DNA of 64,000 bases from Hyunsoonleella aestuarii (lineage in GTDB: Bacteria > Bacteroidota > Bacteroidia > Flavobacteriales > Flavobacteriaceae), in NCBI RefSeq assembly GCF_006148925.1, contig NZ_VAWB01000001.1, positions 1,702,001 to 1,766,000 of the forward strand, in the 5' to 3' direction. This document shows, piece after piece, positions 9,077-63,971 of this stretch (the first letter of the stretch is position 1; every line of letters starts with the position of its first letter). The translations under genes were made by a program, and so were the position numbers. The notes under the pieces are model-generated. The model was not told the DNA's origin. It made no database searches and saw only the letters and a list, made by a program, of their open reading frames with translations.

Positions 9077-9541
9077 ATGAAAAAGACAATATTTGGATTT
9101 TTAATATTTATTGGAGCTTATAGTTTCAGCAACGCTCAAAAAGCAATTTGGCATACCGATATGACAAAAGCTTCCGAAATTGCCATAAATGAAAACAAAC
9201 CAGTACTCATGTTTTTTACTGGATCTGATTGGTGCGGGTGGTGTAAAAGATTGCAGCGCGAAGTATTATTAACTGAAGATTTTGAAGCTTGGGCGAAAGA
9301 TAATGTGGTGCTTATGGAATTGGACTTTCCAAGAAGAGCACCTCAAGAGCAATCAGTAAAGGTTCAGAATTATCAGTTACAGCAAATATTTAAAGTTACA
9401 GGGTATCCGAAGATATTTTTTGTGAACCCAGAAAAGAAACCCGATGGAAAAATGAATTTAAACAGTCTTGGCAGTACTGGATATGTGCGTGGAGGAACTC
9501 AAAAATGGTTGGCTGTTGCAAATAATATTATAAAAAAATAG
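9077..9541 (+). CDS. Secreted thioredoxin-fold protein (WCGWCK)
   Basis: 154 residues with a signal peptide ending near SNAQ (residue ~21). The redox motif WCGWCK has cysteines at 53 and 56, in the context MFFTGSDWCGWCKRL that is typical of the thioredoxin-7/DUF255-like group of Bacteroidota. A cis-proline is likely in GYPKIFF. It should act in the periplasm on protein thiols or disulfides; its partner is unknown. Only 4 bases separate it from a second thioredoxin-like gene, so the two are an operon, transcribed separately from the peptide block because of the terminator upstream. Confidence 0.9.
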   Translation: MKKTIFGFLIFIGAYSFSNAQKAIWHTDMTKASEIAINENKPVLMFFTGSDWCGWCKRLQREVLLTEDFEAWAKDNVVLMELDFPRRAPQEQSVKVQNYQLQQIFKVTGYPKIFFVNPEKKPDGKMNLNSLGSTGYVRGGTQKWLAVANNIIKK

Positions 9542-9545
9542 AAAG

Positions 9546-10094
9546 ATGAAAAGGATTTTATATTTATTTATGGCATGTTGTTTAATTTCAATAAATGCTC
9601 TAGCACAAGAAATTAATTGGGTGACTTTGGAAGAAGCGGTAAAGCTTCAAAAGAAAATGCCCAAAAAGATTATGGTAGATGTTTATACCAATTGGTGTGG
9701 TCCCTGTAAGATGCTTGATAAAAATACATTTCATAACAAGGATGTTGTGGACTATGTCAATAAGCATTATTATGCAGTTAAGTTTAATGGTGAAGGTAAC
9801 GATGTGGTTACTTTTGATGGTAAAACATATGATAATCCAAACTATAATCCAGCAAATGCAAAAAGACGAAATTCAGCACACCAATTGACCCGTTATTTTC
9901 AGATAAATGCTTACCCAACTATAGTTTTTATAGATGAAAAAGGTAAAATGATAGCTCCAATAAAAGGCTATCAACAACCGCAAGGGTTAGAGCTTTATTT
10001 GAAACTGTTTAAGGACGATGCTTATAAAGAAATGGATACCCAAGAAAAATTTACAGCTTATGCGAAAGCTTTTAAGGCAGAGTTTCAAGGTTAA
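9546..10094 (+). CDS. Secreted thioredoxin-like protein (WCGPCK)
   Basis: 182 residues, signal peptide ending near NALAQ (residue ~21). The classical thioredoxin active site WCGPCK is present with cysteines 51 and 54, and the cis-proline segment reads NAYPTIVFID. It is a predicted periplasmic thiol reductase or disulfide-handling protein. It follows the WCGWCK protein by 4 bases and is probably co-expressed; having two different redox motifs side by side suggests a relay or two client sets. Its stop is only 6 bases from the convergent comEC stop, leaving no room for a separate terminator. Confidence 0.92.
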   Translation: MKRILYLFMACCLISINALAQEINWVTLEEAVKLQKKMPKKIMVDVYTNWCGPCKMLDKNTFHNKDVVDYVNKHYYAVKFNGEGNDVVTFDGKTYDNPNYNPANAKRRNSAHQLTRYFQINAYPTIVFIDEKGKMIAPIKGYQQPQGLELYLKLFKDDAYKEMDTQEKFTAYAKAFKAEFQG

Positions 10095-10100
10095 AAGATT

Positions 10101-12146
10101 CTAATAATCAATAATATAGGCTCCCTTTTCGCCAGTTTGGTGAAATGGGAGTTTTCTTTTATTGCAAATCTTCTTCCATCTTTCGATATACGATTTGTAG
10201 TTACTGCCATCTGCTATTATTTGCTCGAGATTCAAAGAGTCGATAAGTCGATTTAAATTAATTTTAGGGGATTTTCTTAAAAGCACATAATCAGGTTTGA
10301 ATAATTTGGTGTTGTAAATACCCAAACTGTCTATAACCAGAAGCTTTTTATTGTTTAAAATGTAGAAAGGTTTTAAGGTGTCTTTTTTGATTGTTTTAAT
10401 ATGACTCTTTACAGTAAAAGATTTGATTATTTTGGTTGTTGATGCTGAAGCTGAAAGGGAATCGGAATTGGATGCAACAGACATTTCATTTTTAGTAATA
10501 TGTCCAATGAGACTGCTTCTGCTTTTATGAAAGATTATTAATTGGTTCGATGGTTTGTTTAACTTGGTGTAGAGCATGGCGGCTTGTACAAGTAAAACGG
10601 AAATTAAGAAGAATTTTAAGCTGAAATAATCTTGTTTCTTATATAATCTAACCAGGGCAATAATCAATACATAGCCTGTTAAAACATATAAAATATTGAA
10701 GGGTATGTCTTTGATTAAGAAGGATTCTTGACTCGAAACCCAGCCAACAATTCCATTCATTTTACTAATGATGCCTCCATAAAAGTTAGCTAGAAAATTT
10801 GGTAACAAATTTATAGAAGTCAATAGGATAACTAATAGACCTATTCCTAAGATAAGTCCAAGAAAAGGAATGATGATTATATTAGAAACAAAAAATAAAC
10901 TTGGGAATTGATGAAAATAGTATAAGCTAATTGGAATAATACCAAATTGAGCGGAAACCGTTATGGTTAGAGTGTGCCATAGTTTATCGAGAATCCAATA
11001 TTTAGTTTTCCATAGATTGTATAATATAGGATCTATCGATACTATTGTGAATACTGCCAAATAACTTAGTTGAAAACCTACATCAAATAAAAATAACGGT
11101 TTGAATAGTAAAATTACAAACATGGAAATAGCCAAGGTGTTATAAATGTTTGTAGGTCTTTTTAAGTTCATGGCTATTGCAACAATACTAAACATGGTGA
11201 CAGCGCGTGTAACGGAAGCGGATAAACCAGCTATCAAAGCAAAAGCCCATAGGAAGATAACAAGTAAAACAATCTTTAGAGGTCTGCCATATTTAAAGTA
11301 TTCTATGGGTTTTAAAACGATACTTAGAATGAGTAAAATAATTCCAACATGCAGACCAGAAACCGCCAAAATATGTATGGCGCCAGCATTGGTGTAGCTC
11401 TCATAAATTTCCTTACTTATATCCTGACGTTGCCCTAATAGTAAGGCATTAATAATGGCAAGCTCATCTGGTTTAAATGAATGGCTTTCCATTTTAGAAT
11501 TAATATACTGCCTAATTGTGTTGGCAATTCCAAATAACGTTTTAGTGCTGGTTTTAACTTTAAATAATTCTTGATTTTTAATAAATGATTGATGGTAAAT
11601 GTATTGCTTGTCGAGATAAATTTTGTAATCGAACTGGTGCGGATTTAATGGATGAATAAGATCCTTAAGATCTAAATAGCTAATGAATATTTCGTCTACA
11701 ATTAGTTTAGCATATAAAGAGTCTTTTTCAATGTTAAGTAATGATTTTCCAGTTACAATGGAATCATTGATTTTTAAAATATCGATGATGTATTTGTCAT
11801 AATAATTTCCAGGTTTTAATACTTCTCTTATCCTAAAGGTGACTTGCGAAGTTGAATTATTTTTAAAACTCTTATGCTCACTATAATGATTATAAAAATT
11901 CTTTTGATTGTGAAAATTAACTACCAACATACCCAAACAAATCATCATGGTATATGCTATAATACCAAACCAAATAGTTTTAATAAATTGCTTTCTAGAT
12001 ACTAAAAATGAAATTAGGAATATTGAAAATAAACTGACTACAAGGTATATATTGGTCTGCAATGGGATTTGAAAGGAGTAACCAATTGCAATTCCAATTA
12101 TAAGACAAACGGTCAGTTTTATAATGGTGAAATTTAAAAGGCGCAT
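10101..12146 (-). CDS. comEC: ComEC/Rec2-family competence membrane protein
   Basis: 681 residues with many membrane segments. The competence core is recognised by the segment around AIHILAVSGLHVGIILLIL (residues ~260-280) and by the following GLSASVTRAVTMF segment, both hallmarks of ComEC. The family forms the inner-membrane channel for single-stranded DNA uptake. An N-terminal periplasmic domain (residues ~90-220) is present. The C-terminal ~150 residues are hydrophilic, Ser- and Lys-rich and lack an HxHxDH metallo-beta-lactamase motif, so this is the form without the nuclease-like domain. It is downstream of an NlpC/P60 lipoprotein gene, 23 bases apart. Confidence 0.92.
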   Translation of the reverse strand: MRLLNFTIIKLTVCLIIGIAIGYSFQIPLQTNIYLVVSLFSIFLISFLVSRKQFIKTIWFGIIAYTMMICLGMLVVNFHNQKNFYNHYSEHKSFKNNSTSQVTFRIREVLKPGNYYDKYIIDILKINDSIVTGKSLLNIEKDSLYAKLIVDEIFISYLDLKDLIHPLNPHQFDYKIYLDKQYIYHQSFIKNQELFKVKTSTKTLFGIANTIRQYINSKMESHSFKPDELAIINALLLGQRQDISKEIYESYTNAGAIHILAVSGLHVGIILLILSIVLKPIEYFKYGRPLKIVLLVIFLWAFALIAGLSASVTRAVTMFSIVAIAMNLKRPTNIYNTLAISMFVILLFKPLFLFDVGFQLSYLAVFTIVSIDPILYNLWKTKYWILDKLWHTLTITVSAQFGIIPISLYYFHQFPSLFFVSNIIIIPFLGLILGIGLLVILLTSINLLPNFLANFYGGIISKMNGIVGWVSSQESFLIKDIPFNILYVLTGYVLIIALVRLYKKQDYFSLKFFLISVLLVQAAMLYTKLNKPSNQLIIFHKSRSSLIGHITKNEMSVASNSDSLSASASTTKIIKSFTVKSHIKTIKKDTLKPFYILNNKKLLVIDSLGIYNTKLFKPDYVLLRKSPKINLNRLIDSLNLEQIIADGSNYKSYIERWKKICNKRKLPFHQTGEKGAYIIDY

Positions 12147-12169
12147 GCGGTTTAAATATAAGAAATATC

Positions 12170-12703
12170 TTATAAAATACGACGTGCTTCAAAAAAGGAT
12201 TTTTGCCAATAGCTTTCAGATAAGGAAGAGGTAATAACACCTGCTTTTGTGGTAGCATGAATAAATGTAATGTCTTTATTGTTTACTTTAACAATTAAGC
12301 CTACATGGTTAATCGCGTTTCTTCTGTTTTTTCCAGTTTTAAAAAATAGTAAATCCCCTTTTTGAGTGTTTTTCAAGGTAATTTTAGTGCCCTTTTTGGC
12401 CATGTCTCTAGATATCCGGGGGAGATAAATATTATGTGCATTAAAAGACTCAAAGATTAAACCAGAGCAATCCATCCCTGATTTGCTCGTGCCACCCCAT
12501 TTATAACGAACACCTTTGAAGGATTTGGCATAATTAATAATTTTATCTTCAATGGGGATAACTTCATTGGAAGTAAGACTATTAGTTTTTTGTTTTGATT
12601 TTTTTGTTATTACTTTAGATGACGTGGAATTTTTTGATCGCTTTGAGGATTTACAGCTATAAAAGGCAACTATTAGGAGAATAAGAACTAGAATTTTTCT
12701 CAT
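12170..12703 (-). CDS. NlpC/P60 cell-wall peptidase lipoprotein
   Basis: 177 residues. A short signal ends in a lipobox-like VAFYSC with Cys17, followed by a basic, Ser/Lys-rich linker (18-45). The C-terminal domain is NlpC/P60: catalytic Cys79 in SGMDCSGLI, His in INHVGLIV and a polar third residue in FIHATT. Such enzymes cut peptide stems in peptidoglycan (typically D-Glu-DAP bonds) and act on the periplasmic side. It lies between lpxB and comEC on the same strand with short gaps, probably in one long envelope-related transcript. The exact bond it cuts cannot be read from the sequence. Confidence 0.9.
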   Translation of the reverse strand: MRKILVLILLIVAFYSCKSSKRSKNSTSSKVITKKSKQKTNSLTSNEVIPIEDKIINYAKSFKGVRYKWGGTSKSGMDCSGLIFESFNAHNIYLPRISRDMAKKGTKITLKNTQKGDLLFFKTGKNRRNAINHVGLIVKVNNKDITFIHATTKAGVITSSLSESYWQKSFFEARRIL

Positions 12704-12711
12704 TAATCTTG

Positions 12712-13827
12712 CTAATCTTGAAGTGACTTAAAAATTAACTTAGCTGTTTTTTCGCTTGCGCCTTTACCTCCCAATTTTTTCTCTAGCTCATAATAATTCA
12801 TAAAGAATTTGGTGCGCTCATAAGGGTCCAAAATAATGTCCAATTCTTTTTGCAATTGCTTTTTGTTAAAGCCATTTTGGATAAGCTCTGTCACTACTTT
12901 TTTGTCCATAATCAAATTAACGAGCGAGATATATTTAAGCGTAATAATTCGCTTGGCAATTTGATATGAAATATTACTTCCTTTGTAGCATACTACTTGA
13001 GGCACTTTAAACAAGGCTGTTTCTAAAGTGGCTGTGCCAGAAGTTACTAATGCCGCAGTGGAAACACTAAGTAAGTCGTAAGTTTTATTTGGAACAAAAC
13101 CAATATTACGTTTAGTAATGAATGGTTTGTAGAACTCGTATTCCTGACTTGGCGCTCCTGCAATTACAAATTGATAATTAGGATAATCATCAGCTAAACT
13201 TAGCATAACCGATAAGGTCTTCTTTATTTCTTGTTTCCTACTTCCTGGTAAAAGCGCTATAATGGGTTTGTCATTTAGGACGTGTTCATTTCTAAATTCG
13301 AATTCATCAACTTGATTTCTATCCGATATAGCATCAATTAAAGGATGTCCTACAAAGGTAACATCGTAATCAAATCTGCTTTCATAAAATTCTTTCTCAA
13401 AAGGCAGTATAACGTACATAGCATCAATATCCCTTTTAATGGCATAAACCCTTTTCGCGCGCGATGCCCAAACTTGAGGAGAAATAAAATAGTTAGTTCT
13501 ATAACCTTTTTGCTTTGCCCATTTGGCGATACGTAAATTGAAACCTGAATTATCAATAAAAATAATGACATCTGGGGCATAGCTTTCAATATCTTTTTTA
13601 CATAATGAGATATCCTTGAAAATTTTAAAAAGATTCATGATTACCTCAATAAACCCCATGAATGAGCGCTCTTTGTAATGTTTTACAAGTGTGCCGCCAA
13701 CACCTTGCATTAAATCGCCACCCCAAAACCTAAAATCAGCATTTACATCTTCTCTTTGTAAAGCCTTCATAAGGTTTGAGCCATGTAAATCGCCAGAAGC
13801 TTCGCCAACAATTATATAATACTTCAT
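12712..13827 (-). CDS. lpxB: Lipid-A-disaccharide synthase
   Basis: 371 residues from the ATG at 13827, which gives the canonical start MKYYIIVGEASGDLHG; an in-frame codon 12 residues earlier lies inside the neighbouring gene and is unlikely. LpxB joins UDP-diacylglucosamine and lipid X into the lipid A disaccharide at the inner membrane. Visible family features are GEASGDLHG near the N-terminus, FWGGDLM, YFISPQVWASR, LPFEKEFY, FVGHPL, LLPGSRKQEI and SGTATLE. Full length for the family, so the cell makes lipid A. It is downstream of a small membrane protein and surE. Confidence 0.95.
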   Translation of the reverse strand: MKYYIIVGEASGDLHGSNLMKALQREDVNADFRFWGGDLMQGVGGTLVKHYKERSFMGFIEVIMNLFKIFKDISLCKKDIESYAPDVIIFIDNSGFNLRIAKWAKQKGYRTNYFISPQVWASRAKRVYAIKRDIDAMYVILPFEKEFYESRFDYDVTFVGHPLIDAISDRNQVDEFEFRNEHVLNDKPIIALLPGSRKQEIKKTLSVMLSLADDYPNYQFVIAGAPSQEYEFYKPFITKRNIGFVPNKTYDLLSVSTAALVTSGTATLETALFKVPQVVCYKGSNISYQIAKRIITLKYISLVNLIMDKKVVTELIQNGFNKKQLQKELDIILDPYERTKFFMNYYELEKKLGGKGASEKTAKLIFKSLQD

Positions 13828-13828
13828 T

Positions 13829-14110
13829 TTAGAAGAGTTTAAAAACAAAAGTAAAAACAGCAATAAAAACAGTAATTAGTAAAACACCCCGCGCTCTGTA
13901 ATCTTGTCTTTTTTTAATAAAAATAAAAAAAGCAATTAAGTTTAAAATAGCTCCGAGACTTATTAATTTACCAAGAAAGCCTTCATTGGATGCTGCTTTT
14001 ATAACATTCATAAAATCATCACCTTGTCCCAATAGGGTAGCAGCTAAAAACAAACCAAACACATTAGCAATTAAACCTATAAGTACACCAATTAAAACTT
14101 CTTTTTTCAT
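13829..14110 (-). CDS. Small membrane protein between surE and lpxB
   Basis: 93 residues with three hydrophobic segments (about 5-27, 49-66 and 75-92) and a basic stretch KKRQDYRARG between the last two. No enzyme motif is visible and I do not recognise a named family. It starts 20 bases after surE and its stop is 1 base from the lpxB start, so it is translated as part of this operon. The position suggests a role in the envelope, but that is inference from neighbours only. Confidence 0.75.
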   Translation of the reverse strand: MKKEVLIGVLIGLIANVFGLFLAATLLGQGDDFMNVIKAASNEGFLGKLISLGAILNLIAFFIFIKKRQDYRARGVLLITVFIAVFTFVFKLF

Positions 14111-14130
14111 TTTTGTTTGTTTTAATAAAT

Positions 14131-14904
14131 CTATTTTAAATTCCAGTTTTTCAAATCGTTAATAAGGCGATGTGCCGTTAAGTCAAACTGAATAGGAACG
14201 AGTGAAACATAATTATTTTCTAAGGCCCACTCATCAGTGTCATCACCCTCATCTAAATTAACAAATTTGCCAGAAAGCCAGTAATATTCTTTTCCTTGTG
14301 GGTTAACCCTTTTATCAAATTCTTCAACCCAATTAGCTCTTGCTTGTCTACAAACTTTAATGCCTTTTATTTCCGATTCTATAATGTCTGGGATATTAAC
14401 GTTTAGTACAATACCGTTAGGTAATCCATGTTTTAAAACGTTTTCAGAAATGTTTTTCACAAACGATTTACAAGCTTCAAAATTCGCCTGCCATTTATAG
14501 TTTAGTAAAGAAAAGCCAATGGCAGGAATGCCTTCAATACCAGCTTCTAAAGCGGCACTCATGGTACCAGAATAAATTACATTTATGGACGAATTTGAGC
14601 CATGATTAATGCCAGAAACACATAAATCGGGCTTTTTAGGCAGTAATTCTCGAATTGCAAGTTTTACACAATCTGCTGGGGTGCCAGAACAGCTATATTC
14701 TTTAATTGTATCATCTCCAAAATCTACCCGTTCTGCATACAAAGTCGAATCTAAAGTAATAGCATGACCCATGCCACTTTGAGGACTATCTGGAGCTACA
14801 ACCACAACATCCCCTAAAGTCTTCATAACAGATATCAAAGTTCTTATTCCAGGTGCATTAATACCATCGTCGTTGGTAACTAGAATTAATGGCTTTTCGG
14901 TCAT
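14131..14904 (-). CDS. surE: 5'/3'-nucleotidase SurE
   Basis: 257 residues starting MTEKPLILVTNDDGINAPGI; the metal-binding Asp12-Asp13 pair, the SGMGHAIT motif and the GINHGSN metal ligand segment are all present, as is the SGTMSAALEAG motif. SurE is a cytoplasmic metal-dependent phosphatase that removes phosphate from nucleoside monophosphates. It is the first gene of the minus-strand group running to comEC and is divergent from the processing-protease gene; the 166-base divergent gap should hold both promoters, though I see no exact TAnnTTTG there. Confidence 0.95.
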   Translation of the reverse strand: MTEKPLILVTNDDGINAPGIRTLISVMKTLGDVVVVAPDSPQSGMGHAITLDSTLYAERVDFGDDTIKEYSCSGTPADCVKLAIRELLPKKPDLCVSGINHGSNSSINVIYSGTMSAALEAGIEGIPAIGFSLLNYKWQANFEACKSFVKNISENVLKHGLPNGIVLNVNIPDIIESEIKGIKVCRQARANWVEEFDKRVNPQGKEYYWLSGKFVNLDEGDDTDEWALENNYVSLVPIQFDLTAHRLINDLKNWNLK

Positions 14905-15070
14905 AAGTTTAACACTTTAGGCATCGCTAAAATACATAATTTACGTTGTAAAGCCCTAATTTCTTTAGTTTAACAAAAAATTAGTAGCAATTAACTTTAT
15001 TGGCATAGTTTTTTCTTTATTTTAGTAGAAAATATGCGGTATTTTCCATAGAAATATGAAATATTAACAG

Positions 15071-17218
15071 ATGAAAAAAATTATGAAGAGGAATTATAAA
15101 ATGTTGTTTTTGGTATTGCTGCTTGCTTTTGCTTCATGCAGTTTTACAGCCAAATCGTTTGATGATCCAGATAAGGATAAATTATTAGTTCGTGTTATAA
15201 CATATGTTTTACAGCAAGGTCATTTTGATCCAATTGATATGGATGATGAATTTTCGGCTGAGTTGTATGAAGACTATATTGAAACTATCGACCCAGTTAA
15301 ACGATATTTCTATGAATCTGATATTAAGGATTTCGAAAAGTTTAAATTAACGTTAGACGATCAACTCAAGGCACAGGATATTACATTTTTCAATGTGGTA
15401 CATGAGCGTATGTTAAAACGCATTGAAGAGGCTAAAGAGATTTATGCTGAAGTCTTGTTAAAACCATTCGATTATACTTTAGATGAAGAGTTTGATACCG
15501 ATTATGAAAATATGGAGTTTGCAAAAAATAAGAAGCAAATGAAAGAGCGCTGGAGAAAACAATTAAAGTTTTCTACGCTTAGTAACTATGATGATTTATT
15601 TGAAGACGAAAATCGAATTAAAGAAAGAGACCCATCTCATGTTGTTAAAACAGAAGCAGAGATTGAAAAAGAAGCTCGTGAATCAACTTTAAAATCTATT
15701 GATATCTATTTCAACGACAATATCGACGACTTAAAGCGTGAAGATTGGTTTGCTATATATGTCAACGCTATCGTTGAAGAGTTTGATCCACATACCTATT
15801 ATTTAGCTCCAAAAGGGAAAGAAGATTTCGATCAGCGTATGTCTGGAAAGCTCGAAGGAATTGGAGCTAGATTAACTAAACGCATGGACAATATTAAAAT
15901 AGTTGAATTAATTTCTGGTGGCCCAGCTTGGAGAAGTAAAGAGTTGGAAGTGGAAGATATTATTTTGAAAGTTAAGCAAGAAGATGAAGAATTCCCTGTT
16001 AACATCGTAGGAATGCGAATTAGTGATGCGATCAAGTATATAAAAGGACCAAAAGGAACGAAGGTAACATTAACCATTAAGAAAATTGATGGTACTGTAA
16101 AAGATATAGAAATTGTTCGTGATGTTGTAGAATTAGGAGAAACCTACGCAAAAGCATCATTAGTTGAAAAGGATGATAAGAAGTTTGGCGTTATTAATTT
16201 ACCTGCATTTTATGTCGATTTTAATGACTACAAAAAATTAAATGCCGCTAAAGATGTTAAGCTTGAAGTAGAAAGACTAAAGGCTGAAGGCATGGAAGGC
16301 TTGGTTTTAGATTTGCGTAATAATGGAGGAGGCTCCTTGCCAGCTGTTGTTGATATGGCGGGATTATTTATAAAAGATGGTCCAATTGTGCAAGTCCGTT
16401 CAACAGGCGAGTCTAAGGAGGTTTTAAGAGACCGAGATAAATCCATTACTTGGGATGGTCCATTGGTGATATTGGTTAACGAAATATCAGCATCGGCGTC
16501 AGAAATTATGGCTGCAGCAATGCAAGATTACAAGAGAGCTATAGTAATTGGTAGTAAGCAAACTTATGGGAAAGGCACTGTTCAAAATGTTCTGAACCTG
16601 AACAATTTGGTTCGAAATAATTCCAATGGTGATTTAGGAGCTTTGGCATTAACCACTCAAAAATATTATAGAATTAATGGAGGTTCGGTGCAGTTGGAAG
16701 GAGTAAAAAGTGATGTTAAAGTGCCTGGACGTTTTAGTTTTATTGATGTAGGAGAAAAAGATAAAGATAATCCGCTACCTTATGATGTAATTGACGCTGC
16801 CGATTATACTGTTTGGGATAATTATTTCGATTATGACCAAACTATTAAAAGTAGTGCGGAAAGAATGAGTAATAATGAGCAATTAAAACTTATTGAAGAA
16901 AATGCTAAATGGGTGAAAAGTAAAATTGATGACACAGTATTTTCATTAAACTATAAAAAATATAAAGCTAAACTTGATTTAAATGAAGAAGAGGCGAAAC
17001 GTTTTGATGCACTTTCCGATTATAAAACAAATTTAACATTTCAACCTCTTGCTTATGAAAAAGAGCTTTTTGAATCTGATACCACTGATTTGAAAGAGAA
17101 ACGTGAACGTTGGTATGAAAGCTTAAGTCAAGACGTATATATAGAAGAAGCATTGAATGTTCTTGAAGATTTGCGCACATCTCAAGGCATTAAAAAAGTT
17201 GCTTCGGTTAAGGATTAG
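15071..17218 (+). CDS. Carboxy-terminal processing protease, S41 family (Tsp/Prc-like)
   Basis: 715 residues. The N-terminus has a signal with lipobox-like LLAFASC, so it is probably a periplasm-facing lipoprotein. Order: N-terminal Tsp-type helical region (to ~235, with EEFDPHTYYL), PDZ domain (~245-335, GKLEGIGARL onward), S41 catalytic core (~360-520) and a Tsp-type C-terminal domain. The nucleophile lies in the SASASE motif (473-478) and the general-base Lys is 501 in YGKGTVQ. It degrades or trims periplasmic proteins from the C-terminus. An ATG four codons later is an alternative start. The next gene, an ABC permease, begins 9 bases after the stop. Confidence 0.94.
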   Translation: MKKIMKRNYKMLFLVLLLAFASCSFTAKSFDDPDKDKLLVRVITYVLQQGHFDPIDMDDEFSAELYEDYIETIDPVKRYFYESDIKDFEKFKLTLDDQLKAQDITFFNVVHERMLKRIEEAKEIYAEVLLKPFDYTLDEEFDTDYENMEFAKNKKQMKERWRKQLKFSTLSNYDDLFEDENRIKERDPSHVVKTEAEIEKEARESTLKSIDIYFNDNIDDLKREDWFAIYVNAIVEEFDPHTYYLAPKGKEDFDQRMSGKLEGIGARLTKRMDNIKIVELISGGPAWRSKELEVEDIILKVKQEDEEFPVNIVGMRISDAIKYIKGPKGTKVTLTIKKIDGTVKDIEIVRDVVELGETYAKASLVEKDDKKFGVINLPAFYVDFNDYKKLNAAKDVKLEVERLKAEGMEGLVLDLRNNGGGSLPAVVDMAGLFIKDGPIVQVRSTGESKEVLRDRDKSITWDGPLVILVNEISASASEIMAAAMQDYKRAIVIGSKQTYGKGTVQNVLNLNNLVRNNSNGDLGALALTTQKYYRINGGSVQLEGVKSDVKVPGRFSFIDVGEKDKDNPLPYDVIDAADYTVWDNYFDYDQTIKSSAERMSNNEQLKLIEENAKWVKSKIDDTVFSLNYKKYKAKLDLNEEEAKRFDALSDYKTNLTFQPLAYEKELFESDTTDLKEKRERWYESLSQDVYIEEALNVLEDLRTSQGIKKVASVKD

Positions 17219-56449: not shown

Positions 56450-56725
56450 ATGAAAGCTAATATTACAACAAATTCTCCCTTAATATTGTTTTGGTCTGTT
56501 CCTAGTATTTCTATGGTAAGGGAATATAAGGCTAAATGTGAATTACTAAGTAAGGCTATCGCTAATCTCAAATCTGTTGAAATTTTAACTTATGATAATA
56601 AGCTTATAAAGCTTGAACATATTATAATCGATTCAGGAAAATTCTTTGGAATGGAAAATATCAAAGGAGAGCTTAAAAAACTATTGCTGAATGTTAACAA
56701 GATTAAAGAAATAATAATACTTTAA
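56450..56725 (+). CDS. Small protein of unknown function (91 residues)
   Basis: 91 residues, cytoplasmic, no signal. The layout is alternating strands and helices (PLILFWSVPSISMVREYKAKCELLSKAIANLKSVEILTYDNKLIKLEHIIIDSGKFF and a final KKLLLNVNKIKEIIIL). I do not recognise a family. A promoter element TAAGTTTG and two inverted repeats precede it, and an HTH regulator is divergent, so it is probably regulated by that protein. Base composition matches the surroundings. Confidence 0.6.
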   Translation: MKANITTNSPLILFWSVPSISMVREYKAKCELLSKAIANLKSVEILTYDNKLIKLEHIIIDSGKFFGMENIKGELKKLLLNVNKIKEIIIL

Positions 56726-57141: not shown

Positions 57142-58278
57142 ATGGACTTCGTTTCCATTATTGACTTTTTATTAATGGCTGGGGTTTTACAAGGTTTCGG
57201 ATTTAACCTTGTAACCATTTTTGTTAAAAAGAGATTCGATAAAACCATTATCTTTTTAAACTTAACTGTCTTATTTATTTCATTAAACAATCTTCAAAGG
57301 TGGCTTATAGATAATGATTATTCGTCTGATTTGTTTCTGTTGGAAAATTTGATGATTCCTTGGTATTTGTTTATTGCGCCAATGTTTTATGCATTTACAA
57401 TTCACTTTATTAAAGTTCAGGATCGTGTAAATGACTTTGTTAGGTTTACAATTGTGCTTTTTATTGTTGAAATAATTATAAGGCTGTGTTTAATTTCTCA
57501 TGTTTATTATCAAGTTCCTAATAGGGACATATCAATAATAGAAAATTACACGACTTTTGAAGATATCTTCAACTTGGTATACGGTATTTTGTTTTTTGCG
57601 AATTCGTGTATTCTTATATTCCGAAAACACCACTTATTGCAATATATTTTAGCTTATGATGACTTAAATTGGATAAAATGGTTTATTCGCTTTGGTGGTT
57701 TGGTCATGCTTTTATGGGCAGTTGCTGTGATAGTTAAAAGTTTAACAGGTGATGAGTTTGTGTACTTATTTTTACGATTTAGTTCGTCAATACTGCTCTA
57801 TTGGATAGGATATCAAGGATTCTATAAATATAATGTGGTAAGGGATCGTATTTATTTAAGAAGTTCTATTGAAACGAATAGTGTTTTAATTACGCCAAAT
57901 AATTATGAGAAGCCATCCACAAAATCTGATGATTTCTTTAATGAAAAACATCAAAATGACTTTGAAAACGTGAAAAATCATGTTATTGGAAATAAACTTT
58001 ATTTGGATCCTTTGCTAAGCATGGAGACTTTGGCCAGCGACCTTGGGATGAGCAAAAGTTATTTCTCAAAACTGATAAATTCTTATAGTACCTATAACTT
58101 TTCAGATTTTATTAATTCGCTTAGGGTAGAACAAGCTAAAAAGTTTTTGTCCAGTAATGAATTTAATGAATATACCATTGTAGCTATTGGTTTAGAATGT
58201 GGTTTCAATTCTAAATCTACCTTTTATTCTGCCTTTAAAAAATTCACTTCAGAGACACCAACATCCTACAGAAATTAA
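57142..58278 (+). CDS. Membrane-anchored AraC-family transcriptional regulator
   Basis: 378 residues. The N-terminal ~235 residues contain about seven hydrophobic spans (starting near 7, 36, 65, 104, 140, 182 and 205), making an integral-membrane sensor. The C-terminal ~100 residues are an AraC/XylS domain with two helix-turn-helix motifs: LSMETLASDLGMSKSYFSKLINSYS and YTIVAIGLECGFNSKSTFYSAFKKFTSETPTSYR. AraC proteins bind direct repeats; a 19-bp-period direct repeat lies just downstream (58319-58356), ahead of a five-gene operon on the same strand, the likely target. The signal is unknown. Confidence 0.88.
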   Translation: MDFVSIIDFLLMAGVLQGFGFNLVTIFVKKRFDKTIIFLNLTVLFISLNNLQRWLIDNDYSSDLFLLENLMIPWYLFIAPMFYAFTIHFIKVQDRVNDFVRFTIVLFIVEIIIRLCLISHVYYQVPNRDISIIENYTTFEDIFNLVYGILFFANSCILIFRKHHLLQYILAYDDLNWIKWFIRFGGLVMLLWAVAVIVKSLTGDEFVYLFLRFSSSILLYWIGYQGFYKYNVVRDRIYLRSSIETNSVLITPNNYEKPSTKSDDFFNEKHQNDFENVKNHVIGNKLYLDPLLSMETLASDLGMSKSYFSKLINSYSTYNFSDFINSLRVEQAKKFLSSNEFNEYTIVAIGLECGFNSKSTFYSAFKKFTSETPTSYRN

Positions 58279-58318
58279 GATTCTTCTGATATATATCATT
58301 GTGACTTCATAGATATGT

Positions 58319-58356
58319 AATTAAATTTAGTATTAATTCTTAAATTTAGAATTATT
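58319..58356 (+). promoter_or_regulatory. 19-bp-period direct repeat (candidate AraC operator)
   Basis: TTAAATTTAGTATTA (58321) and TTAAATTTAGAATTA (58340) are near-identical and 19 bases apart. The spacing resembles paired AraC-family half-sites. An inverted repeat TAATTCT/AGAATTA (58334-58354) overlaps it. Confidence 0.4.
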
Positions 58357-58429
58357 AGAATCCAATATTATCGTTGGACATCCGGATTTTCATAAATAAG
58401 AATATCTTGGACATTAAAACATTTTAAAC

Positions 58430-58472
58430 CTAATAGTTTTATGATTGAAAGAATTAATTATAAAACTATTAG
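58430..58472 (+). other. 13-bp perfect hairpin at the start of the SDR operon
   Basis: CTAATAGTTTTAT pairs with ATAAAACTATTAG around a 17-base loop. A TTG start (58445) lies in the loop and an ATG (58475) two bases after the stem, so translation initiation of the first gene could be controlled by it. It lacks a T tract, so it is not a typical terminator. Confidence 0.55.
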
Positions 58473-59164
58473 TTATGTTACCTATCCTTATTTTATATCT
58501 CTTTAAAAAGATCAAAAGTAATACTGTTATATTGAGTATTAAGGAAGAGTTAAAAACGGCTGTATTGAAGGTAAAAACTTTTTTATTCATTCTAGCAGTA
58601 TTAATTTCATTCTCCTTTGCTAAGGTCAATAGTAAAGTTATTACCTATCATGTTATTAAAAATAATGTACTAATAGGTACAATTGAAATCAATAAAAGAG
58701 TTATTAATGATTCTGTTATTTATTTATCCGAAAGTCATATAAAAGTCAAGTTTTTATTAAAATTTAATGTAGTTGCTAAAGAAAAGTCAGTCTATAAAGA
58801 TGGCGTATTGGTCTATTCTTCCATATTCAGAACTCTTAATAAAAAGACAAAAACAGATAATAAGATTGTTTTAGATAATGGGCAATACAAACTTCAATCT
58901 ACAGGTAATTCAACAGCCTTAGGTTTTAACCGTATCAAACAGAATCTTATCACCTTATATTTTGAAGAACCTAATGGAGCTGGCTATGTTTTTTGTGACA
59001 ACTTAGGGACTATGTCAAAAATAACACCATTAGGCGATAGCAGATATAAAGTAGAATTTTCCAATGGAGCATATAATGTGTTTCATTATAAAAATGGGCA
59101 ATGCGTCAAAATTGATGCTGTAAACAAACTATTTAATGTAACTCTAATTCCAGTAGTAATATGA
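58445..59164 (+). CDS. DUF6134-like secreted protein
   Basis: Open frame of 239 residues from a TTG at 58445, just after a stop. Two other starts fit: ATG 58475, and TTG 58565, which gives KVKTFLFILAVLISFSFA, a clean signal peptide, and ~199 residues, the size I would expect for this family. The mature part (KVNSKVITYHVIKNNVLIGTIEINKRVINDSVIYLSESHIKVKF) is beta-strand rich, resembling DUF6134. Role unknown; probably periplasmic. First gene of the five-gene operon; its stop overlaps the next start by 4 bases (ATGA). Confidence 0.7.
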   Translation: MKELIIKLLVMLPILILYLFKKIKSNTVILSIKEELKTAVLKVKTFLFILAVLISFSFAKVNSKVITYHVIKNNVLIGTIEINKRVINDSVIYLSESHIKVKFLLKFNVVAKEKSVYKDGVLVYSSIFRTLNKKTKTDNKIVLDNGQYKLQSTGNSTALGFNRIKQNLITLYFEEPNGAGYVFCDNLGTMSKITPLGDSRYKVEFSNGAYNVFHYKNGQCVKIDAVNKLFNVTLIPVVI

Positions 59165-59838
59165 ATAATTCAGAGATTATATGGACTCTTATAGGAATTA
59201 TATTTTCCACCTATTTTATAGTGAGTTTTGTGTTTAATAAGTTGGGAATTCAAAATTTACATAAGGCATTAATATCTGCCAATGGATTACGTCTATTAAA
59301 TTTAAAACATCTTTTAGGTATCGTCCTTTTTGGAGTATTTAGTTATATAATGATGCCAGAATTTAGGGTTCTTATAGAAACTATTGAAATAGCAAAATTA
59401 GTTGTTTTAATAGCATTCTTCTTGATATTGTTTCTTTCTGCTTTCGTCTCTTATTTAAGTATCCAAAAAAGAGAAGAGATTCATAAAGTCCATATAAGCC
59501 ATTATAGTTTTTCAAACGCCTGGATGTATTTCATTATAAGATTTACATTTCTATTATGTTATGAATTCTTTTTCAGAGGTGTTCTTTTATTCAAGTTTCT
59601 TAACGAAACAAGCCTTTTTTTGGCTATTTTTTATAGTACAACCTTTTACGTATTAATTCACATTTTTGATTCAAAAAAAGAAATTATTGGAGCTATACCT
59701 TTTGGAATTGTTCTATGCTTATTCACATATTATACAAACAGTGTTTGGTATGCTTTTTTAATTCATCTCGCACTATCATCTGTTTATGAAATTTCGATGT
59801 TTTATTATTTAACACTTAAAGACAAAATTATATCATGA
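59161..59838 (+). CDS. CPBP-like intramembrane protein (variant glutamic protease motif)
   Basis: 225 residues with about seven membrane spans. The CPBP (CAAX-protease/Abi) fold is suggested by YEFFFRGVLLFKF at 134-146, with Glu135 and Arg139 (normally EExxxR), by His167 in FYVLIHIF and by His202 in FLIHLALS. The first Glu of the canonical pair is replaced by Tyr134, so activity is uncertain. Family members cleave prenylated peptides or act as bacteriocin-immunity proteins; none of that is implied here. It overlaps both neighbours by 4 bases, so it is translationally coupled to the SDR gene that follows. Confidence 0.72.
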   Translation: MNNSEIIWTLIGIIFSTYFIVSFVFNKLGIQNLHKALISANGLRLLNLKHLLGIVLFGVFSYIMMPEFRVLIETIEIAKLVVLIAFFLILFLSAFVSYLSIQKREEIHKVHISHYSFSNAWMYFIIRFTFLLCYEFFFRGVLLFKFLNETSLFLAIFYSTTFYVLIHIFDSKKEIIGAIPFGIVLCLFTYYTNSVWYAFLIHLALSSVYEISMFYYLTLKDKIIS

Positions 59839-60821
59839 AAGTATTTGTAACAGGAGCCACAGGTTATGTTGGCCATCAATTAGCAAAAAAATTGGCAAAT
59901 CAAAATTATAAAGTGATTGCTCTAGTAAGGAATTTGAATTCAGAGAATATTCCAAAACATGTAAATATTATTCCTGTAAAAGGTGATATATGTAATTATG
60001 ATTCTATAGAAAAGAGCATTGTAGGCTGTGATTATGTATTTCATACGGCAGCTTATACCAACTTAAAATGTAAAAATATAAATAACTTCTATAGTGCCAA
60101 TGTTAAGGGAACAGAGAACATTTTGAAAGCTTCTCAAAAACATCATATTAAAAAGGTTATTTATACTAGTACACTTGCTGTTCATGGGCCTTCATATAAA
60201 AGCATTGCAATTACCGAAGATCAACCGCGATTAATATCCTATTCAAATGATTATGAGTTAACAAAAGGGGTTTCGGAAGAGTTGGTTTTCTCATATATCA
60301 AAAAAGGATTGCCTTGTGCCATTTTAAATGTTACACGAGTATATGGTCCAGGGTTAAAGACTTTTACAAGTGGTGTCAACACACTAATTTCCAAAATTGC
60401 GAATAATGATTTTTTGATCGTACCAGCAAAACTAAATGTCACAACAAATTATGTTTTTATTGATGATGTTGTCGATGCTCATATACTAGCAATGAAAAAA
60501 GAGATAAGTAACGGGAAATATATTATTGGGGGTGATAATATAAGTTATGAGACCCTTTTTGAAGTCATTAAAAATATTACAAAAAGTAAGATAAAAATTG
60601 TTAAGGTTAACTACGGCATTATAAAAACTGGTTTTGCTATCATTAACATAACTAAGAGGTTTTTTGGAATGCCATCAGGAATTACCACAAAAGTTTTAGA
60701 CTCCCTCTTTGTAAATAGAATTTCATCATCACGAAAGGCGATTAAAGATTTAGATTATCAGGTTACACCCTTAAATAGAGGTCTTTTAACAACTATAAAT
60801 TACTTAAAATTTGCAGCATGA
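59835..60821 (+). CDS. Extended SDR (NAD-dependent epimerase/dehydratase), copy 1
   Basis: 328 residues. NAD(P) motif TGATGYVGHQLA at the N-terminus, the STLAVHG strand with its catalytic Ser/Thr region, and the YxxxK pair at Tyr-Glu-Leu-Thr-Lys in NDYELTKGVSEE. The overall layout resembles extended SDRs acting on 3-hydroxysteroids, dihydroflavonols or nucleotide sugars, so substrate is not predictable. Cytoplasmic. Similar to the last gene of the operon (61642-62604), so the operon holds two extended-SDR paralogues around a classical SDR. Starts ATGA-coupled after the CPBP gene. Confidence 0.88.
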   Translation: MKVFVTGATGYVGHQLAKKLANQNYKVIALVRNLNSENIPKHVNIIPVKGDICNYDSIEKSIVGCDYVFHTAAYTNLKCKNINNFYSANVKGTENILKASQKHHIKKVIYTSTLAVHGPSYKSIAITEDQPRLISYSNDYELTKGVSEELVFSYIKKGLPCAILNVTRVYGPGLKTFTSGVNTLISKIANNDFLIVPAKLNVTTNYVFIDDVVDAHILAMKKEISNGKYIIGGDNISYETLFEVIKNITKSKIKIVKVNYGIIKTGFAIINITKRFFGMPSGITTKVLDSLFVNRISSSRKAIKDLDYQVTPLNRGLLTTINYLKFAA

Positions 60822-61588
60822 AAACTTATACTTTAATAACTGGAGCAAGCAAAGGATTCGGAAGAGCACTTGCTTTGGAATGCGCAAAAAAAAACATGAA
60901 TTTGGTTTTAGTAGCGCTTCCAAATTCTGGATTAGAAGTGTTGAGTGAATTTTTAACAAACAATTTTGGAATTGATGTGTTGTTTTTTGAAATGGATTTA
61001 AGTTCAAAAGAAAATTGCATACATTTATATCAGGAAGTCAAAAGGAGAGGGGCCTCAATTAAATATCTAATAAACAATGCAGGTATGTTAAGTAATGGTT
61101 TATTTGAAGATATGAACGCGGATTATTTTTTAACCCAGATAAATATTAATGTCTCAACTCCAACTTTATTAACAAAACTATTCATCGATGACTTTAAGGC
61201 CTATACCCCATCAGGAATATTGAATGTAAGCAGTATGGCGAGTTTTTTTCATTTGCCAAAAAAACAAGTATACAGTGGTACCAAGGCTTATTTGTTGTCT
61301 TTTTCAAAAAGCTTAAGAAAAGAACTCAAGAAATATGGGATTTCTGTTTCTATTGTTTGTCCTGGAGGGATGAATACCACAGCGAGGTTATGCATACAAA
61401 ATAGAAGATTAGGATGGATATCTAGAAAATCAATTCTTAATCCAGAGGACGCTGCTAAAGAAACTCTACAAGATTTTTTTCGAGGTAAAGAGGTCATTAT
61501 CCCTGGTTTTATGAATAAAGTTTTTATGTTTTTAGATTCAATACTTCCGGTAGGAATCAAAAATAAACTTACAAGTAATGCTATTTAA
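60818..61588 (+). CDS. Classical short-chain dehydrogenase/reductase
   Basis: 256 residues. The cofactor motif is TGASKGFGRALA, followed by NNAG at ~residue 85, Ser in NVSSMASF and the YSGTK active site (Tyr and Lys) near residue 150. The Ser-Tyr-Lys set is complete, so it should be an active oxidoreductase of the acyl-group or hydroxysteroid-like type. A C-terminal hydrophobic stretch (NKVFMFLDSILPVG) may touch the membrane. Its start overlaps the first SDR stop by 4 bases. Confidence 0.92.
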   Translation: MKTYTLITGASKGFGRALALECAKKNMNLVLVALPNSGLEVLSEFLTNNFGIDVLFFEMDLSSKENCIHLYQEVKRRGASIKYLINNAGMLSNGLFEDMNADYFLTQININVSTPTLLTKLFIDDFKAYTPSGILNVSSMASFFHLPKKQVYSGTKAYLLSFSKSLRKELKKYGISVSIVCPGGMNTTARLCIQNRRLGWISRKSILNPEDAAKETLQDFFRGKEVIIPGFMNKVFMFLDSILPVGIKNKLTSNAI

Positions 61589-61641
61589 TAAGGTCTCATT
61601 TCAAAAATTCAATATTGTTTTATCCAAATGAGCTTAAAATA

Positions 61642-62604
61642 ATGACTGTTTTAGTTACTGGAGCTAATGGCTTATTAGGGACCAACGTTATAAACGAGCT
61701 TTTGAGAAAAGGCTATAAAGTTTATGGGTATTTAAGAAAAAAGTCTTCTTACAAGGGGATAGTTAATGCAAATCTTACATTATTAGAAGGTAATTTGCCT
61801 GATGTTAATGGTATATTCCAGGTGCTTGGAGATGTCGATACTATAATTCATTGTGCAGCTATAACTAATCAAAACCTTTTGCAATATTCAGATTATTACG
61901 ATTTAAACATTAAAAGTGTTAAGCATCTTGTAGATATAGCAATAGAACAAAGTGTCTCAAAATTTATTTATGTAAGCACCTCTAACGTCTTTGGTAATGG
62001 AAAAAGCGGGGTTTCGGCAAATGAAAGCTCTAAAATGAGATATCCGTTTTCAGAGTCCTTCTATGCTTTAAGTAAGTTAGAAGCAAGTCGTTATTTGAAA
62101 ACTAAGGAAAGTCAAATTGAAGTGGTGACCGTTAATCCAACATTTATGATTGGAGCGTATGACACAAAGCCAAGTAGCGGAAGAATTGTTTTAATGGGAT
62201 TAAAGAATCGAATTGTTTTTTGCCCTCCAGGAGGTAAAAATTTTGTTTGTGTAGAGGATGTGGCTAATGGAATTATAAGTGTTTTAGATAATGCTGTAAA
62301 CGGAGCGTCTTATATCATAGGCAGCGAGAATTTAAGTTACACTAAGTTTTTTAAGAGACTTCGAGTGCTGTGTAAAAGAACGTTCATAATTGTAAAACTC
62401 CCAAGAATAGTGCTATTATTTTTTGGTAGAATAGGAGATACACTTAGGTATTTTGGAGTAAGAACCAATTTGTCGACTGTTAATATGAAGGCTGTTTCAA
62501 TAAACAACTATTATTCAAATAGAAAAGCTCTAGAGGAATTAAGACTAACTATTAACCCTATAGAAAAGGGAATAGAAGATGCAATAAATTGGTTTAAGAA
62601 ATAA
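61642..62604 (+). CDS. Extended SDR (NAD-dependent epimerase/dehydratase), copy 2
   Basis: 320 residues from the ATG at 61642, which gives the standard TVLVTGANGLLGTNVI start; an upstream in-frame codon at 61615 adds nine unlikely residues. NAD motif TGANGLLG, STSNVFG strand and the active site YALSK (Tyr and Lys). Similar in size and layout to the SDR at 59835. Last gene of the operon, beginning 53 bases after the middle SDR and followed by a terminator. Confidence 0.88.
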   Translation: MTVLVTGANGLLGTNVINELLRKGYKVYGYLRKKSSYKGIVNANLTLLEGNLPDVNGIFQVLGDVDTIIHCAAITNQNLLQYSDYYDLNIKSVKHLVDIAIEQSVSKFIYVSTSNVFGNGKSGVSANESSKMRYPFSESFYALSKLEASRYLKTKESQIEVVTVNPTFMIGAYDTKPSSGRIVLMGLKNRIVFCPPGGKNFVCVEDVANGIISVLDNAVNGASYIIGSENLSYTKFFKRLRVLCKRTFIIVKLPRIVLLFFGRIGDTLRYFGVRTNLSTVNMKAVSINNYYSNRKALEELRLTINPIEKGIEDAINWFKK

Positions 62605-62644
62605 AAACCCGTCAATCTTGACTCTCAAGGTTAACGGGTTTTTG
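62603..62644. terminator. Bidirectional terminator between convergent operons
   Basis: AAAAACCCGT (62603-62612) pairs with ACGGGTTTTT, extended inward by AATCTTG/CAAGGTT with one G-U pair and one mismatch. It ends the SDR operon and the SbtA-partner transcript. Confidence 0.88.
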
Positions 62645-62664: not shown

Positions 62665-62976
62665 TTAATCTTCTACTTGAATTGTAATGATACTTTCTAT
62701 TCTTAATTTCTTTCCTTTTAAACGGGCATCTTTAAAGTAATCTTTAGCATCATGCTTCGCATCGATGAGCTCAATGATTCTACTGTTGTCATATTCGCAA
62801 GTATCATTTGCGTTACCTTCAGTGCGAGATAATCTCTGTAACTTGTGAAAGTTAATTTTTACATCCAAAACCGAGTTGATTATATCTCCTGCTTCAGATG
62901 GTGTAAAGTGACCATCAATAAGTTTAATTTCTTGATCTAAATTAATTTCTTTGGTTGAAATCGATTGTGTTTCCAT
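62665..62976 (-). CDS. Small protein downstream of SbtA-like permease, family unknown
   Basis: 103 residues, acidic, no signal or membrane span. It is rich in Asp, Glu and Lys with the segments FTPSEAGDIINSVLDVKINFHKLQRLSRTEGNAND and KLRIESIITIQVED. It follows the SbtA-like permease by 26 bases on the same strand, the position held by the regulator SbtB in cyanobacteria. It does not look like a PII-type SbtB (no T-loop pattern I can see), so it may be a different kind of partner or chance neighbour. Confidence 0.7.
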   Translation of the reverse strand: METQSISTKEINLDQEIKLIDGHFTPSEAGDIINSVLDVKINFHKLQRLSRTEGNANDTCEYDNSRIIELIDAKHDAKDYFKDARLKGKKLRIESIITIQVED

Positions 62977-63002
62977 AATGTGATTTTTTTAAGTTAAAAA
63001 TT

Positions 63003-63971
63003 TTATAAAGTATTTTGAATGATAAACAAGTAAAGTGGCATACCCAGAGTAATATTAAACGGGAATGTAATAGCTAAAGCCATTGGTATGTACAAACTAG
63101 GGCTGGCTTTTGGAACTGCGATTTTCATGGCAGCGGGAACCGCAATATAAGACGCACTTGCTCCTAGTATAGCAAATAATAGACGATTACCTACTTCGCT
63201 TATAAAAAGACCACTTGCAACTGCAACTATAACACCATTGATAATTGGTATAATTATGGCAAATGTTAAAGCAAATCGTCCTTTTTTAATAAATTCATTA
63301 AGTTTTTTACCACTTGTAATTCCCATATCTAATAAGAATACTGCTAGGAATCCTTTAAAAATATCTGTAGTAAATGGCTTAATACCTTCTGCTTGAGCTT
63401 CACTGGCTAGAAAACCTATCGCCAAACTCCCAAGAATCAATAAGACACTTCCATTAAACAAAGCATGTTGAATAACTGTTTTCATTGGAATTTCTGATTT
63501 ACCATTACCACCTTTAAAAAGCATAATTAAGAGTAAGCCTACCATAATTGAAGGAGCTTCCATTAAAGCCATTACAGCTACCATGTGCCCACTAAAGGCA
63601 ATTTGCTCTATTTCTAAAAATGAAATAGCGGTAACAAAAGTTACAGCACTTACAGATCCGTAGGCAGCAGCTATCGCACCAGCATTTTCAATGCTAAACT
63701 TGCGTCTTAGTATGAAATATCCATATACCGGAACAGCTACTGCTAAGAAAATACCAAACAATAAAGACCAAAGAATCTCCATGTCAAATTCACTATGCGC
63801 CAATTCTTGTCCACCTTTAAAACCAATGGCAAGTAACAAGTAAAGTGATATGAATTTTGAAGAATTTTCTGGGATATGTAAGTCACTTTTTAGCTGCACT
63901 GCAATGACGCCCAAAAAGAAGAACAATAATGCAGGATTAGTTAAGTTGTCTATAAGTAAATGTAAATCCAT
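63003..63971 (-). CDS. SbtA-like sodium-dependent bicarbonate permease
   Basis: 322 residues with about ten membrane spans in an inverted-repeat layout. The start DLHLLIDNLTNPALLFFFLGVIAVQLKSDLHIPE and the KGGQELAHSEFD, AIAAAYGSVSAVTFVTA and FLAVFLLDMG segments are those of the SbtA/DUF897 family. SbtA proteins co-import bicarbonate with Na+ in cyanobacteria; homologues in Bacteroidota are less studied, so the substrate is inferred. It starts the two-gene operon with the 103-residue protein. Confidence 0.9.
   Translation of the reverse strand: MDLHLLIDNLTNPALLFFFLGVIAVQLKSDLHIPENSSKFISLYLLLAIGFKGGQELAHSEFDMEILWSLLFGIFLAVAVPVYGYFILRRKFSIENAGAIAAAYGSVSAVTFVTAISFLEIEQIAFSGHMVAVMALMEAPSIMVGLLLIMLFKGGNGKSEIPMKTVIQHALFNGSVLLILGSLAIGFLASEAQAEGIKPFTTDIFKGFLAVFLLDMGITSGKKLNEFIKKGRFALTFAIIIPIINGVIVAVASGLFISEVGNRLLFAILGASASYIAVPAAMKIAVPKASPSLYIPMALAITFPFNITLGMPLYLFIIQNTL

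Follow-up and report, generated by a model that had tools for sequence, protein, structure and literature searches.

A conserved DUF6134–CPBP–oxidoreductase operon of Flavobacteriaceae with its own putative operator and a possible role in envelope-lipid tailoring

The stretch of DNA analyzed here (the window; 64,000 nucleotides of Hyunsoonleella aestuarii, G000:C1:1702001-1766000) carries six genes on the + strand, which encode, in order, an AraC-family regulator, a DUF6134 protein, a CPBP-fold membrane protein and three short-chain dehydrogenases/reductases (SDRs), referred to below as SDRa, SDRb and SDRc. From comparison with related genomes, we are highly confident that DUF6134-CPBP-SDRa-SDRb forms the fixed core of a real conserved operon, usually located behind the AraC gene, and this core very probably has a control site of its own. 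The gene block appears to be genuine and not yet described, as does its switch: among open-licence papers, none contained the word DUF6134 and none described this combination of genes. As for function, we lean with moderate confidence towards an inducible operon that reductively tailors an envelope lipid and hands it over to the periplasm.

The positions of the open reading frames (ORFs), together with the Pfam assignments (in gene order: AraC HTH_18, DUF6134, Rce1-like/CPBP, Epimerase-type SDR, adh_short SDR and Epimerase-type SDR), bear out the six genes, the strand and the order proposed in the initial annotation. Three 4-base ATGA overlaps, at 59161, 59835 and 60818, join the genes for DUF6134 (58475-59164, 229 aa), CPBP (59161-59838, 225 aa), SDRa (59835-60821, 328 aa) and SDRb (60818-61588, 256 aa), as had been claimed. 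The AraC gene (57142-58278, 378 aa) and the SDRc gene (61642-62604, 320 aa, starting with ATG 61642) are uncoupled, with gaps of 196 bp between AraC and DUF6134 and of 53 bp between SDRb and SDRc. Because its relatives begin there, the DUF6134 protein most likely starts at ATG 58475 and not at the alternative TTG 58445. The strong terminator that had been proposed behind the unit was recovered as well: an intrinsic hairpin of -21.3 kcal/mol, accompanied by a T-run, lies at 62602-62644 (+) (z -5.8, with 0 of 200 shuffles folding as well), and was detected by folding against shuffled sequences after a simple consensus scan had overlooked it.

Conservation of gene order had been named beforehand as the test of whether these genes form a system. 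We searched the DUF6134 protein in 250 genomes of the same family, and considered hits of 117 bits or more close relatives. Such relatives were found in 17 of the 250 genomes (G000 included), with only distant DUF6134 proteins elsewhere. Combining this search with further contigs yielded 25 non-redundant loci, some of them from draft genomes in which loci may be cut, with neighbours annotated by Pfam for selected proteins. Among the carriers with names are Flaviramulus, Hyunsoonleella, Tamlana, Jejuia, Christiangramia and an uncultured Algibacter; the contig of the last also stands for G034, which belongs to the same genus as the window. The gene order was conserved across these loci, which upholds the view of the operon as one system. 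Among the loci that cover the place in question, CPBP and SDRa were adjacent in 23 of 23, SDRa-SDRb was likewise kept in all 23 (L048 and L053 carry an additional SDR between the two), and DUF6134 adjoined CPBP in 22 of 23. The exception is L058, where AraC-DUF6134 is followed by another SDR and an FA_hydroxylase gene. SDRc was found in six loci, plus a fragment in L052, and is therefore accessory.

Since many loci share the same rpe-rpoD neighbourhood, part of this conservation is vertical, and one could argue that the genes are together only because a chromosome region was inherited whole. The core is, however, retained with other flanks in five loci (L039, L040, L042, L050 and L062), its genes overlap, and SDRa and CPBP are paired in further families of the phylum as well. 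The flank comparison and this wider pairing largely refute a purely positional explanation, which we regard as very improbable.

The AraC protein combines about 225 N-terminal residues containing several hydrophobic segments (residues 1-224) with a C-terminal double helix-turn-helix domain (HTH_18, 62.8 bits against a cut-off of 33.6; HTH_AraC, 47.4 bits), and its orthologues adjoin the operon in 18 of 23 loci. Between AraC and DUF6134, the block GTCCGAAATTATCGTTGGACATCC is nearly invariant across 16 aligned intergenic regions. A second TTGGAYAT comes 33 bp further on, and after it TAATANTTTTA, which resembles the -7 promoter consensus of Bacteroidetes. In the window, the putative operator reads ATCCAATATTATCGTTGGACATCC (58360-58383, +; family consensus GTCCGAAATTATCGTTGGACATCC, GTCC-N12-GGAC), the second half-site lies 33 bp 3' of the operator's TTGGACAT (58407-58414, +), and the promoter-like element, with its position kept in the alignment, is TAATAGTTTTA (58431-58441, +). 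The site is essentially private to this locus: TTATCGTTGGACATCC occurs once in the window's genome, and the next matches carry three mismatches and are no commoner than in a reversed control; no wider AraC regulon was found in this genome. In 13 operon-bearing genomes, the 14-mer ATCGTTGGACATCC was found at this promoter in all 13 (with one mismatch in G115 and G174), and G220 alone holds another exact copy.

A matrix derived from 15 sites scored the window's operator at 35.0, against at most 12.7 in shuffled sequence, and picked up the site in three loci outside its training set, L047, L062 and, with a weak score, L058. In the loci where no AraC gene adjoins the operon (L040, L050, L059, L060 and L061), it found no operator. 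In other words, the operator was present in 18 of 18 loci with an adjacent AraC and in 0 of 5 without (Fisher p ~3e-5, with the caveats of shared ancestry and of a matrix trained on most of the positive loci). Two operator sites face the two transcription units of L062, where the AraC gene is divergent. Given a conserved, private site that goes with the AraC gene, this AraC would most likely bind this operator. The gap between AraC and DUF6134 holds both the operator and the promoter-like element, and the operon is therefore probably a transcription unit of its own, with AraC probably transcribed apart. The original picture of a five-gene unit under AraC gains support for AraC control from the conserved private operator and needs revision in that the five genes are not equal, SDRc being accessory. 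Two tandem AraC paralogues lie upstream of the operon in L037 (3244-5549, same contig as L056) and L042 (3198-5525).

With its membrane sensor part and what seems to be one target operon, AraC would also suit a diffusible-signal system, in which a lipophilic signal produced by the SDRs is received by the membrane AraC and the operon autoinduces. We consider this unlikely, as the operon encodes no synthase to build a carbon skeleton, and the copies in L040, L050 and L059-L061 have neither an adjacent AraC nor the operator, so that the enzymes are useful without AraC.

One small ORF family may be a further member of the regulon. The second operator copy in G220 precedes a homologue of the window's 91-aa ORF (56450-56725, +). 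In L053, an ORF of this 91-92 aa family lies downstream of SDRc (4195-4473, -), with a second copy of the operator (4563-4586) ahead of it. In the window and in L055 the ORF lies upstream of AraC; the window's own copy has no operator before it, and its membership here is a guess.

The three SDRs have the glycine-rich cofactor motif and the Ser-Tyr-Lys residues of their family. In SDRa (extended; PF01370, 134.8 bits) TGxxGxxG, S112, Y140 and K144 are invariant, as are TGxxxGxG, S139, Y152 and K156 in SDRb (classical; PF00106, 139.4 bits); SDRc (extended; PF01370, 103.1 bits) has Y150-K154, numbered by its alignment reference. Among curated models, HpnA, SdmB and OleD match SDRa and SDRc best and mycolate reductase matches SDRb best, with every score far under its cut-off: SDRa and SDRc scored 179.5 and 173.2 bits against 367.65 for HpnA and 94.4 and 70.6 bits against 580 for OleD, and SDRb scored 134 bits (residues 2-251) against 380 for mycolate reductase (NF040690). 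We therefore rejected the olefin (Ole) and mycolate pathways. A hopanoid pathway was rejected as well, since the HpnA score is too low and a search of the window's genome found no squalene-hopene cyclase; HpnA-like SDRs elsewhere have citrate synthase/ALAD or NADH dehydrogenase genes in their vicinity, which also counts against it. Phylogeny places the operon copies of SDRa in a single clade (support 100/97) within a larger, moderately supported group that includes the PAP2-linked copies.

That HpnA is named a sugar epimerase raises another option, namely that SDRa and SDRc are nucleotide-sugar epimerases or reductases feeding an envelope glycan, with DUF6134 and CPBP serving its assembly. A similar-sized CPBP gene is needed for O-antigen in Riemerella anatipestifer, a relative of the same class (PMC6142336). 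Against the sugar route, the best solved relative of SDRa is the oxidoreductase 3wj7 (E 2.5e-30), well ahead of sugar epimerases; no glycosyltransferase travels with the operon, judging from the locus comparison and Pfam; and the variant loci described below bring lipid genes instead. This route thus seems improbable to us.

The CPBP protein belongs to its family by sequence (PF02517, 40.2 bits against a cut-off of 22.4) and its AlphaFold model (pLDDT 86.6) is nearest to the solved folds of Rce1 (4cad, probability 1.00 though E 0.029) and the SagB-SpdC complex (6u0o). The altered active-site motif reported earlier was confirmed. The window's motif 1 reads YEFFFR in place of EExxxR, with Y134-E135 replacing the catalytic Glu-Glu, and is YExFFR-like in every operon copy: the first Glu is Tyr throughout, the second Glu, the Arg and both His (H167 and H202) are retained, and the Asn position of HxxxN is mostly Ser. 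In Rce1/MrtX, the first Glu and a His activate water, while the His and Asn of HxxxN form the oxyanion hole (PMC11980579). The protein thus lacks the first catalytic Glu of CAAX proteases in every operon copy, and CPBP is most likely not a protease. An active CAAX protease was accordingly rejected, as was a restriction of the altered motif to SDR-linked copies: CPBPs without SDR neighbours share it, and the motif marks a wider CPBP branch.

The DUF6134 protein matches PF19630 over nearly the whole profile (87 bits against a cut-off of 27.9), and its AlphaFold model (pLDDT 86.3) consists of two N-terminal hydrophobic helices followed by an all-beta part. The prediction is of a periplasmic domain, anchored in the membrane, whose fold is EipB/LolA-like. 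Among solved folds, EipB (DUF1849; E 4.8e-5, TM-score ~0.5) comes closest; LolA and LprG matched with E-values of about 0.01-0.07 and TM-scores of 0.2-0.3 (0.24-0.28). Searches of the DUF6134 and CPBP profiles against solved structures by sequence gave nothing useful, and homology between DUF6134 and DUF3108 found no support (hhalign probability 5.6%). The earlier suggestion that a molecule is exported gains indirect support from this predicted periplasmic domain.

An anchored periplasmic partner and a fixed CPBP would not be needed if the operon served detoxification or redox stress, with the SDRs reducing toxic lipid-derived aldehydes or ketones and AraC sensing membrane damage. SDRs are often broad carbonyl reductases, and the operon's sporadic occurrence in the family (17/250 genomes) is as stress modules can be, yet on balance we judge this explanation to be quite unlikely.

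Variant loci point in the direction of lipids. In L049 and L054, a fatty acid desaturase gene is inserted between SDRb and SDRc, and L058 brings FA_hydroxylase genes. The initial annotation had guessed at a lipid or polyketide-like molecule; the lipid half of that guess agrees with this gene content, while for the polyketide-like half no polyketide synthase, nonribosomal peptide synthetase or acyl-carrier gene was present among the annotated neighbours. The L058 region (9498-16422) lacks CPBP and SDRa; there, AraC-DUF6134 is followed by another classical SDR, an FA_hydroxylase gene, two genes that match nothing in Pfam, a radical SAM gene and one more FA_hydroxylase gene.

Profile searches over 395 Bacteroidota genomes revealed SDRa-CPBP pairs in other classes and families. 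In six loci from other families (L106, L111, L132, L134, L138 and L139), a PAP2_3 protein accompanies SDRa and CPBP, and in four of these (L111, L134, L138 and L139) a DUF3108-type protein joins them; this module, too, is apparently undescribed. In L131, DUF3108 and DUF6134 lie side by side near SDRb-SDRa. L130 and L131 both have the SDRa-SDRb pair near a DPRP photolyase-related gene, and in L131 an ECF sigma gene and FecR adjoin DUF3108-DUF6134. Distant DUF6134 genes are often near patatin or PLD genes: eight loci (L065, L067, L068, L069, L073, L075, L078 and L079) have one near a gene that belongs to one and the same cluster, whose L065 member is a patatin-like phospholipase, and in L065 and L075 a PLD-like gene lies between or beside the two.

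We favour envelope-lipid tailoring because lipid-active neighbours occur in independent variants, the SDRs are nearest to lipid-ketone reductases, CPBP is probably non-proteolytic and DUF6134 has a predicted periplasmic EipB/LolA-like domain. Starting from the gene order, operator conservation, residue losses and predicted folds, we infer the substrate class, the order of reactions, the hand-over and what AraC senses as follows. AraC would sense the membrane state or a lipophilic ligand via its membrane part and, if the sign of control is as we presume, activate this one promoter. At the inner membrane, SDRb and SDRa would act in succession on a lipid that bears a long hydrocarbon chain, through NAD(P)H-dependent carbonyl/hydroxyl conversions, with SDRc, where present, contributing a further step. 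CPBP, as a non-proteolytic Rce1-fold protein, would hold or present the lipid in the membrane, and on the periplasmic side, the anchored beta domain of DUF6134 would receive the product or monitor it, in LolA/EipB-like fashion.

Several points weigh against this reading. All curated SDR models were missed by far, and the SDR fold serves sugars and alcohols too; lipid enzymes accompany a minority of operon copies and are absent from the window's; the altered CPBP motif also occurs in CPBPs without an SDR neighbour; and the likeness of DUF6134 to LolA is modest (with the TM-scores given above), EipB itself being without an established ligand (PMC10787603).

More speculatively, and with low confidence, a one-component membrane sensor may control a lipid hand-over route in which CPBP, its protease residues lost, serves as a station in the membrane that links cytosolic reductases to an anchored beta-domain acceptor in the periplasm, a CPBP-SDRa station that would be reused across Bacteroidota with PAP2 and DUF3108. 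If true, this station with PAP2 and DUF3108 would constitute an undescribed lipid-modification and export module. Should the lipid reading prove right, Flavobacteriaceae would gain a regulated modification of an envelope lipid, and CPBP proteins a role other than proteolysis. DUF6134 and the catalytically altered CPBP branch, both of them unassigned families, are now tied to fixed SDR partners and one regulated promoter, which makes their function testable.

Beyond the operon, two genes converge on its terminator (62665-63971, -), encoding a 103-aa protein and a 322-aa membrane protein that may resemble an SbtA-type transporter.

Among known systems, OleD, HpnA and SdmB, the extended SDRs of lipid pathways, align with SDRa and SDRc over nearly their full length with catalytic residues intact, but the operon's scores lie far below every cut-off and the partner genes differ. 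Among curated models, SDRb comes closest to mycolate reductase, a CmrA-type classical SDR, and Bacteroidota are not known to have a mycolate pathway. CPBP shares the Rce1 fold with the Rce1/MrtX proteases and the SpdC protein, and differs from Rce1/MrtX in lacking the first Glu of EExxxR and mostly also the Asn of HxxxN. The predicted beta domain of DUF6134 is nearest to EipB, an envelope-integrity protein of unknown molecular role (PMC10787603), and then to LolA and LprG; compared with EipB, the operon proteins add an N-terminal hydrophobic helix and a second hydrophobic segment, at a sequence identity of 8-9%. Finally, the 3-ketosphinganine and 3-ketocapnine reductases are Bacteroidota SDRs that reduce a lipid ketone and are encoded away from the first-step synthase (PMC9278070, PMC11211663). 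The operon's enzymes are SDRs from the same phylum, but its presence in ~7% of the sampled family genomes fits a core lipid poorly.

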